A DNA stretch of 43,119 bases, from positions 1 to 43,119 of the forward strand of contig JAHHHI010000012.1 of assembly GCA_019359435.1 (NCBI GenBank), written 5' to 3'. The position numbers were made by a program, and so were the translations under genes. The notes under the pieces are model-generated. The model ran no database searches and was not told the DNA's origin. It worked only from the letters and a program-made list of their open reading frames with translations. The stretch's first letter is position 1; every line of letters begins with the position of its first letter. Positions 1,850-11,785 of this stretch are shown here, in pieces. The stretch comes from Kaiparowitsia implicata GSE-PSE-MK54-09C (GTDB lineage: Bacteria > Cyanobacteriota > Cyanobacteriia > Elainellales > Elainellaceae).

Positions 1850-2632
1850 AAAAAAGAAGAAGGAATTAGGGATTTGGGAAAAATGGAGGAGGAACGGGTT
1901 AGCCCTGCATCAGGTATAGATAGAAACAGGGACTAGTGCACGATGTTGGTATCCAAAACTCAGCCTAAGCCTGGATGTCATCAGTCTCCAAATACTCTGT
2001 AAATAGGCTTTAGATCAGGAGATGTCTCGAAAAACCGTCTTCGCTTCTAGCGAATGCTGTTTGCCCCGACGGTATCACTGCTGGTTAACGTGGGATTTTC
2101 TTTGGCAGAAACCACTTATGTCTAATGCGAGTCAGGTGTCGAAAAAGAGAACATAAGAGAGAGCGAGAATTGCAGCATCTCTGTTAAGCCCCGGCCTTTT
2201 CTATGACTAGGATAAGCTTTCTCAGGGTAATAACCTGACCTTCGTTCCAGGTTGTATCATCAATTCCAACCACACGCCTGATGCTATGAGCGTTACTACG
2301 CCCGACCCACAAATCAGGCTAGGGGCTGTAACTGTTGATTTCTAAGATATCAGAGGCTAATTGATGACAGCCCCTAGTGAATGACTGGGATCAAAGATCG
2401 ATAAGCGTTTAGCCAATCGGTTGGATTTGCCGCTCTGTTTTCTGGCAGAACTCGTGAGGCGTGAGCCTCAGCGGTAGGGATAGATGCTGCTGATCGCTGC
2501 CCGCATAGTGGCGAATTGCTAAGTCTAGCCGCGTATGTCATCAACTCTCACCCTCCTATCCTTAAGAAAAACCGTGAAACCTCCTCATCTACCGTTAAAG
2601 TGAGAGATGGAGTGCTTTCCTCGCTGTTGTTC
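1850..2632. other. Intergenic region upstream of gun4
   Basis: The region separates the leftward YtxH cluster from gun4. It contains repeat R1 copy 1 (2257-2377), described separately. I see no further gene. A TTG-initiated extension of the gun4 frame to 2516 exists, but its residues look unlike coding sequence. Confidence 0.5.
2257..2377 (+). repeat. Intergenic repeat R1, copy 1
   Basis: This segment of about 121 bases is closely matched at 11497-11623 in the same orientation. It carries two inverted-repeat pairs in interleaved order. Arm A TCATCAATT (2257-2265) pairs with AATTGATGA (2359-2367). Arm B CTAGGGGCTGT (2319-2329) pairs with ACAGCCCCTAG (2367-2377). A-B-A'-B' is the topology of a pseudoknot or of two competing hairpins. 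It has no coding capacity and resembles a miniature dispersed element. It lies about 255 bases upstream of the gun4 ATG. Confidence 0.85.
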
Positions 2633-3397: not shown

Positions 3398-3434
3398 GCA
3401 CGGCTTGCGCCAGCGCGACTAAGCTCGTTCAATT

Positions 3435-3557
3435 ATATCAATTCTCTAAATCAGAACGACGGATTGTTTGAGGAGGGGGGTGGGGAACTGCGTTCCCCAC
3501 AAGGGGGCAAAGCCCCCTTGCCCCCCCATTTGTAGCCCAAATTTTCGGAATTGATAT
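3435..3557 (+). repeat. Intergenic repeat R2, copy 1
   Basis: This segment of about 123 bases is nearly identical to 11665-11785. It is bounded by ATATCAATTC (3435-3444) and GAATTGATAT (3548-3557), a perfect 10-base terminal inverted repeat. Inside are two tight hairpins: GTGGGGAAC (3480-3488) with GTTCCCCAC (3492-3500), and AAGGGGGC (3501-3508) with GCCCCCTT (3512-3519). G-rich hairpin repeats of this style are common between genes in filamentous cyanobacteria. It lies between the convergent gun4 and REC-GGDEF-EAL genes, so it could also act as a transcription stop. Confidence 0.85.
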
Positions 3558-11447: not shown

Positions 11448-11496
11448 TTCAGTGCTTCTAAAGATTTAGCGCTTTCAATTGAAGACTTAGGGCATG

Positions 11497-11623
11497 TTAT
11501 CAATTCCAACCAAACGACTGATGCTATGAGCGTTGCCACGCCCGACCCAAAAACCAAGCTAGGGGCTGTGACGGTTGATTTTTGGGATATCAGTATCAGA
11601 GGCTAATTGATGACAGCCCCTAG
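11497..11623 (+). repeat. Intergenic repeat R1, copy 2
   Basis: This is the second copy of the element at 2257-2377, same orientation, with scattered substitutions and a 6-base insertion near 11591. Arm A TTATCAATT (11497-11505) pairs with AATTGATGA (11605-11613); relative to copy 1 the C-to-T change turns a C-G pair into a U-G wobble, so pairing is kept. Arm B CTAGGGGCTGT (11559-11569) and ACAGCCCCTAG (11613-11623) are unchanged. It lies about 50 bases after the icd stop codon. Confidence 0.85.
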
Positions 11624-11664
11624 TTCTATAGCGCTTAGCGCAAGTCCCCTGATTGAAGTGTTTT

Positions 11665-11785
11665 ATACCAATTCTCTAAATCAGAACGACGGATTGGTTG
11701 AGGAGGGGGGTGGGGGGCTACGTTCCCCACAAGAGGGCTTTGCCCCCTTGCCCCCATTTGTAGACCAAATTTTCGGAATTGATAT
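11665..11785 (+). repeat. Intergenic repeat R2, copy 2
   Basis: This is the second copy of the element at 3435-3557 in the same orientation. The left end reads ATACCAATTC instead of ATATCAATTC, so one terminal pair is lost. The first inner hairpin is also weakened (GGGGGGCTACGTTCCCC), while AGGGC-TTT-GCCC keeps the second. It starts 41 bases after R1 copy 2 and is followed at once by another hairpin (11790-11823). Confidence 0.85.

Follow-up and report, generated by a model that had tools for sequence, protein, structure and literature searches.

Genomic context and layout of R1

The window, a stretch of 43,119 nucleotides of a Kaiparowitsia implicata contig, carries two copies of a dispersed repeat that we call R1. 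Copy 1 is followed, about 140 bases on, by the start of the open reading frame of a GUN4-family gene (PF05419; 2516-3397, + strand). Copy 2 sits between the 3' ends of two convergent genes, one for an isocitrate/isopropylmalate dehydrogenase (PF00180; 10017-11447, + strand) and one for a YbjQ_1 protein (PF01906; 11870-12325, - strand). The window also contains two copies of a second dispersed repeat of 93 bases (3433-3525 and 11663-11755; 90% alike), which is rich in G runs and in CCCC/GGGG inverted repeats. The second copy of this repeat is located some 40 bases downstream of R1 copy 2, and 17 matches of at least 70 bases, the window's own counted, occur in 1.83 Mb of the K. implicata genome (here, the home genome).

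A sequence-only reading had described in both R1 copies an interleaved, pseudoknot-type pairing of two stems in the order A-B-A'-B'. The pairing is there, in copy 1 as TCATCAATT, CTAGGGGCTGT, AATTGATGA, and ACAGCCCCTAG, with base 2367 common to the last two, and in copy 2 as TTATCAATT, CTAGGGGCTGT, AATTGATGA, and ACAGCCCCTAG (Table 1). Also present as described are the C-to-T change in stem A of copy 2, which makes a wobble pair, and the 6-base insertion TATCAG in that copy. Perfect stems of 9 and 11 pairs in this order arose in 0 of 20,000 dinucleotide-preserving shuffles of 2257-2377.

R1 is a MITE of about 125 bp, and this interleaved pairing is part of a larger design. Both copies reach 7 bases further left than had been supposed, to about the bounds given in Table 1, and these 7 bases, which lie outside the earlier stem A (element positions 4 to 10), face an internal CRCGCCC. 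The full stem order is A-B-A'-C-B'-C', in which the left end GGGCGYG pairs with CRCGCCC (left arm), the inner halves of the terminal inverted repeat (TIR) pair with each other, and CTAGGGGCTG pairs with the right end, GGGGCTG with CAGCCCC (right arm). The earlier stem A corresponds to the inner TIR halves; the two stems noticed earlier are the second and third of the three, and the left-end stem had been missed. This extra stem is decayed in copy 1 (GGTTGTA versus TACGCCC) and has one mismatch in copy 2 (GGGCATG versus CACGCCC). An alignment of 31 copies from a search that used sequence alone has CTAGGGCGTGTCATCAATT on its left side and AATTGATGACAGCCCCTAG on its right side, with CACGCCC and CTAGGGGCTGT between them. 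From here on, A, B, and C denote the left arm, the TIR stem, and the right arm.

Table 1. Coordinates of R1 and its parts in the window; element ends are placed by the TA duplication of the family
Feature	Position	Strand	Remark
Copy 1, whole element	2250-2374	+	Covariance model match 2247-2377
Copy 1, flanking TA	2248-2249 and 2375-2376		Left decayed to CA; right intact
Copy 1, left outer end GGTTGTA	2250-2256	+	Decayed from GGGCGTG
Copy 1, inner TIR half, 5' side, TCATCAATT	2257-2265	+	Stem A of the earlier reading
Copy 1, left-end inner partner TACGCCC	2297-2303	+	Consensus CACGCCC
Copy 1, right-end inner partner CTAGGGGCTGT	2319-2329	+	Earlier stem B, 5' side
Copy 1, inner TIR half, 3' side, AATTGATGA	2359-2367	+	
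Copy 1, right outer end ACAGCCCC plus target TAG	2367-2377	+	Earlier B', ACAGCCCCTAG
Copy 2, whole element	11490-11620	+	Covariance model match 11487-11623
Copy 2, flanking TA	11488-11489 and 11621-11622		
Copy 2, left outer end GGGCATG	11490-11496	+	
Copy 2, inner TIR half, 5' side, TTATCAATT	11497-11505	+	
Copy 2, left-end inner partner CACGCCC	11537-11543	+	
Copy 2, right-end inner partner CTAGGGGCTGT	11559-11569	+	
Copy 2, insertion TATCAG	about 11594-11599	+	Repeats the preceding six bases
Copy 2, inner TIR half, 3' side, AATTGATGA	11605-11613	+	
Copy 2, right outer end ACAGCCCC plus target TAG	11613-11623	+	ACAGCCCCTAG

Copy number, target site, and distribution

Among the identities offered for R1 from its sequence was a miniature element, and both its copy number and the existence of empty sites with a TA duplication confirm this. 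R1 is short, multicopy, and without a transposase gene of its own. The covariance model finds at least 150 matches in the home genome, every one over the full 131 model positions, and all 40 of the BLAST candidates that were scored (the best 40 of 195) are long matches. At two paralogous empty sites, TTAG and CTAG stand against the filled forms T-TA-element-TA-G and C-TA-element-TA-A, and from these comparisons we conclude that R1 duplicates TA inside YTAR. The flanks of the best 150 home copies read CTAG (113) or TTAG (20) on the left and CTAG (124) on the right.

R1 moves as one unit. In 1.83 Mb of the home genome, the four motifs occur in order in 134 clusters, and three head-to-tail dimers were found (C98:8058-8315, C70:36725-36983, and C82 near 51537), each with one CTAG common to both units, as expected if one copy had inserted into the TA that borders another. 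Independent half-elements were considered and rejected: with up to 2 mismatches per motif, the same 1.83 Mb held neither a left end with its partner alone nor an inner right motif with the right end alone. Two right-half clusters with 3 mismatches in at least one motif did appear; one of the two is an R1 copy from the set of 150 home copies, with a diverged left end. Lone single R1 ends do occur in this sequence.

Relatives of R1 (E <= 0.001) are present in 62 of 388 genomes sampled from the class (53 of the 334 good-quality ones) and in 26 of 160 genera. They include the cultured strains Nodosilinea nodulosa PCC 7104 and Leptolyngbya sp. PCC 6406, so that our reading of R1 is open to testing. 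Among the matches listed for the core pattern in named records, 73 of 74 are cyanobacterial by title (Nodosilinea, Leptolyngbya, Stenomitos, Lyngbya, Halomicronema, and others); the one Streptomyces record listed is without both element ends, and we took it as a chance match. Carriage by viruses or plasmids was also considered and set aside, as 0 viral contigs had the exact core pattern and the two R1 members compared with plasmids gave no match. Small elements with a similar TIR and a different middle, which contains the palindrome CAAGGGGCTTAAGCCCCTTG, lie at three loci of relatives (L059, 1377-1525; L256; L257).

Conservation and covariation of the pairings

We analyzed conservation in an alignment of 114 copies under 45 genome labels, which remained after 7 of 121 extracted copies had been dropped as reversed, misplaced, or of another MITE type; 3 loci yielded no copy. 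On the tree of these copies, stem columns took 4.3 to 5.1 substitutions each, versus 17.7 for other columns. Pairing stands at 95.5% in the left arm, 92.3% in the TIR, and 92.2% in the right arm, versus 31 to 52% for slid partners, in a set of copies most of which were found by a covariance model into which stems A and C had been built. The outer ends, set against each other, pair in 61.4% of cells; at least 2 mismatches separate them in every one of the 114 copies, so none has fully matching outer ends.

The sequence-only reading had looked to two properties of the stems in many copies, intact pairing and covariation, and each was found in part. The left arm is fully paired in 85 of the 114 copies, the TIR stem in 58, and the right arm, within the element, in 56; single broken pairs are common, as is expected of old copies. 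Covariation was detected at one pair of the left arm, 9/52, which covaries best of all column pairs when compared with 60 alignments simulated along this tree (E = 0.1; next, 16.7). An E of 0.1 does not reach significance in an open search; it does so only because 9/52 is among the 27 pairs specified in advance. The remaining specified pairs had E >= 53, mostly because their columns hardly vary. Pair 9/52 is C-G in 60 copies, T-A in 40, and unpaired in 12. Elsewhere, double changes are seen at 79/125 (G-C to C-G, in 4 copies from genomes G047 and G092) and at 77/127 (G-C to A-T, in 2 copies). The right-end counterpart of 9/52, the homologous pair 81/123, stays T-A in 109 of 114 copies and does not vary together with 9/52. 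Columns 74 and 75, in the CTA before GGGGCTG, have 1 substitution each.

Further copies were collected with a pattern left free at positions 9 and 52, which gave 74 places, 65 of them with both ends; 48 of these 65 were new. The new copies read CG in 20 cases, TA in 20, TG in 4, CA in 0, and others in 4 (Fisher test, 6e-9; this test ignores relatedness, and many of the copies come from genomes already sampled).

Timing of the constraint

Changes in the home genome can be divided into those on terminal branches, which followed insertion, and those on internal branches, which were passed on by transposition. After insertion, stems changed about as often as loops, both at G/C sites (4.4 versus 5.3; p = 0.32) and at A/T sites (2.3 versus 2.9 per site; p = 0.24), in a sample made up of the 150 best-scoring home copies, in which decayed copies are therefore under-sampled, with a bias against seeing stem changes. 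On internal branches, stems changed far less than loops at G/C sites (0.52 versus 1.70; p = 4e-5) and at A/T sites (0.33 versus 1.00; p = 0.0096). Terminal-branch substitutions are few in the inner right motif as well (2.55 versus 3.92 per loop site), and a small in-situ effect may act there. Changes in the arms from a paired state to G-U were not in excess over those to A-C, either on the 114-copy tree (37 versus 33; p = 0.72) or on the 150-copy home-genome tree (58 versus 42; p = 0.13).

Because inherited changes avoid the stems, postinsertion changes do not, and there is no bias toward G-U, we place the constraint in mobility and not in an RNA made by resident copies. The folding pattern of the arms seems to matter during the spread of R1 and not after landing, and a DNA-level requirement for movement fits better than a resident RNA. 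The proposal of selection on structure therefore stands for the pairing itself, which is conserved and is no decaying palindrome, and falls for resident copies or a transcript. For the same reason, the C-to-T change in copy 2, which had been offered as a sign of selection, is no such sign on its own: it lies in a resident copy, and in resident copies stem changes are about as frequent as loop changes.

Partner insertion sequences and possible origin of R1

The 19-bp TIR of R1 is common to IS5-type insertion sequences (ISs) of about 0.84 kb, and the 19-bp end of R1 is identical to one end of an IS in genome G048. This IS has two open reading frames, of which the first matches DUF4096 and transpos_IS5_3 (135 bits versus a cut-off of 110) and the second matches DDE_Tnp_1, with transpos_IS5_3 just below the cut-off (108 versus 110 bits). 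Complete elements of 829 to 897 bp with R1-type ends were found at 21 of 28 transposase loci. The draft assembly of the home genome holds 15 matches to the partner transposase family. Two of these are intact proteins of 264 amino acids without R1-type ends nearby, and the rest are partial, one of them adjoining an end with 2 mismatches and two a more diverged end; none of the matches in this draft assembly is an intact partner IS that carries matching ends. At one locus of another genome (L321, in G328), an R1-type MITE starting at 935 abuts a like-ended IS starting at 1063, with CTAG common to both.

Unequal outer ends occur in 9 of the 21 ISs as well as in the MITE. The arms are absent from most partner IS ends: the best 7-base complement at 40 to 65 bases reached 7/7, wobbles allowed, at 4 of 42 IS ends, and the same measure gave 2.9% for shuffles and 89 of 114 for MITE left ends. 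The exception is an IS of G328, present in two copies, in which CGCGCCC lies at 50 from the left end; one of the copies also has GGGGCTG as its right end, with CAGCCCA at 51. This IS may be near the ancestor of R1, or it may be a recombinant.

Nucleotide alignment of the MITE loops with the IS ends gave no support for homology (z = -0.1 left, -0.2 right), so that descent of R1 from an IS through internal deletion is no more than a suggestion. When read in the frame of the transposase, the left arm weakly resembles the C terminus of the protein (15 of 1,000 permutations were as good, in a test that took in the 37 of 44 loops that have 31 bases), and other frames and offsets score lower.

Folding, proposed mechanism, and rival readings

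For 65 nonredundant copies, RNAalifold prefers the two arms (-51.6) to the TIR stem (-46.9), and single RNA folds show the TIR stem in 9 of 10 cases. Five sequences folded as DNA did better than their own shuffles (z = -2.5 to -4.7); one formed both arms, copy 1 formed the right arm, and three formed the TIR stem. When each state was enforced, with energies that exclude loop-loop contact, the values for DNA were -20.5 with the arms and -19.3 with the TIR, the arm state being the lower one in 65 of 114 copies, and those for RNA were -41.5 and -44.3 (arms lower in 34, TIR preferred in 80). The long hairpin and the two local hairpins of R1 are predicted to be close in energy.

We propose that an IS5-type DDE transposase (NCBIfam transpos_IS5_3, Pfam DUF4096) would move R1 in trans, inserting it at YTAR and duplicating TA. 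In the left arm, GGGCGYG would pair with the CRCGCCC some 40 bases inward, and in the right arm, CAGCCCC (+ strand) would pair with the GGGGCTG some 38 bases inward, which would place the inner TIR halves TCATCAATT and AATTGATGA in the loops of the two arms. Single-stranded or extruded R1 DNA could then form two hairpins with touching loops (A-B-A'-C-B'-C') or, alternatively, one long TIR hairpin, which the conserved mismatch of 2 to 3 bases between the ends would weaken, tilting the choice toward the arms. The two-hairpin fold may aid recognition of the ends, or it may spare the element the long-hairpin form. We think it somewhat probable that R1 is a MITE with paired arms whose fold serves one of these ends. 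The more specific proposal, that an IS5-type MITE evolved a single-strand folding step independently of REPINs, with its ends recognized or shielded and the mismatch blocking the long hairpin, we put forward only tentatively. Against folding stand the single convincing covarying pair, the preference of single RNAs for the TIR, and the absence of a one-strand wobble signature.

The main rival is a tuned MITE without folding, in which the inner motifs are extra inverted binding sites in duplex DNA, read by the same protein that reads the ends. It would account for a constraint tied to movement and for the missing strand bias, and also for the inner right motif, which keeps CTA before GGGGCTG though its partner at that point is target DNA; CTA plus GGGGCTG resembles a copy of an end with its target. 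Internal sequences are reported to affect movement in eukaryotic MITEs (PMC9921582). Yet the left end and its partner change together, as C-G or T-A, while the right pair stays, and a joint change of the left pair alone is not what a single protein that reads four similar sites would predict; moreover, most partner IS ends have no inner motif (the 7/7 complement at 4 of 42). We consider this reading rather unlikely, and more so the possibility that the arms are functionless products of mutation. Template switching in imperfect palindromes (quasipalindrome correction) would copy arm onto arm and could give compensatory-looking pairs in inverted repeats 38 to 40 bases apart. Against this, the terminal branches of the home genome show 2 compensated double changes (A 1, C 1, B 0) versus 154 changes that turned a pair into G-U, A-C, or another broken state (A 55, B 48, C 63 over all; arms alone 118), and the avoidance of stems on internal branches would go unexplained, which makes such an origin improbable.

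Movement of a REPIN-like element by an HuH transposase (Y1, RAYT type) through single-stranded DNA would fit the pair of hairpins, the two alternative folds, and the spread of the element as a unit, all proposed for REPINs (PMC3116915), and the home genome has three Y1_Tnp matches. The TA duplication, a TIR common to IS5-type elements, and a YTAG instead of a GTAG tag point elsewhere, and the loci of the three Y1_Tnp matches hold no match to the R1 model at E <= 0.1; we regard HuH movement as very improbable and discarded it on the TA duplication and the lack of R1 at these loci. We give the least credence, very little indeed, to a structured noncoding RNA or riboswitch-like element in host transcripts, for which the pseudoknot-type topology speaks; a structured RNA had been among the identities offered from the sequence. 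Copies do lie between convergent genes more often than random intergenic points (37 of 147 classified copies versus 18%), by crude gene calls that break a gene at an insertion and therefore cannot reveal intragenic insertions. This candidate was abandoned: stems are nearly as free to change as loops after insertion, G-U is not preferred over A-C, the element has transposon ends and a target duplication, and Rfam 15 gave 0 matches at the gathering score in the window.

Comparison with known systems

Folds of bacterial MITEs are often predicted but rarely tested against evolution, and for R1 the many diverged copies allow selection that acts during movement to be told apart from selection on copies in place. 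They point to the paired arms as a cis requirement for spread. Should the arms act by folding, a single-strand stage of the kind proposed for REPINs would extend to MITEs of DDE transposons; should they act as duplex sites, R1 would be a bacterial case of a MITE tuned to the transposase that moves it.

In the literature searched, in which subscription journals are thinly covered, we found no description of a MITE with paired arms. Two cyanobacterial MITEs are similar to R1 by description. Group 1 of the Anabaena sp. 90 MITEs is depicted with inverted repeats in three sets, labeled A, B, and C, and is possibly of the same kind; the same paper (PMC3542288) classes the MITEs of this strain as type II, without similarity to the IS ends of that genome. 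Nezha, as cited in PMC3049150, is proposed to be moved by an ISNpu3-like IS and so resembles R1 as a cyanobacterial MITE with an IS as its proposed mover.

R1 is like IS5-type MITEs (NCBIfam NF033580, transpos_IS5_3) in being short and noncoding, in having the TIR of an IS and a target duplication, and in its high copy number; it is unlike them in its two arms, in which either end is matched by an inner partner of its own, and in outer ends that never fully match (0/114). For RAYT elements, the authors of the REPIN study proposed both a stable long hairpin and a "clover," and in that study (PMC3116915), REPINs share with R1 the alternative of one long or two local hairpins, compensatory changes, and dispersal as a unit. 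The REPIN tag at the foot of the hairpin is GTAG or CGTC (PMC3733652); the ends of R1 are mostly CTAG, with some TTAG on the left. R1 further differs from REPINs in its IS5-type TIR, its TA duplication, its YTAG/CTAR ends, its arm loops of about 40 bases, and the absence of a Y1 transposase nearby. Taken together, these comparisons lead us to regard R1 as a MITE of the IS5 type whose ends have a REPIN-like, two-fold architecture, in which the folding step is one that we infer.
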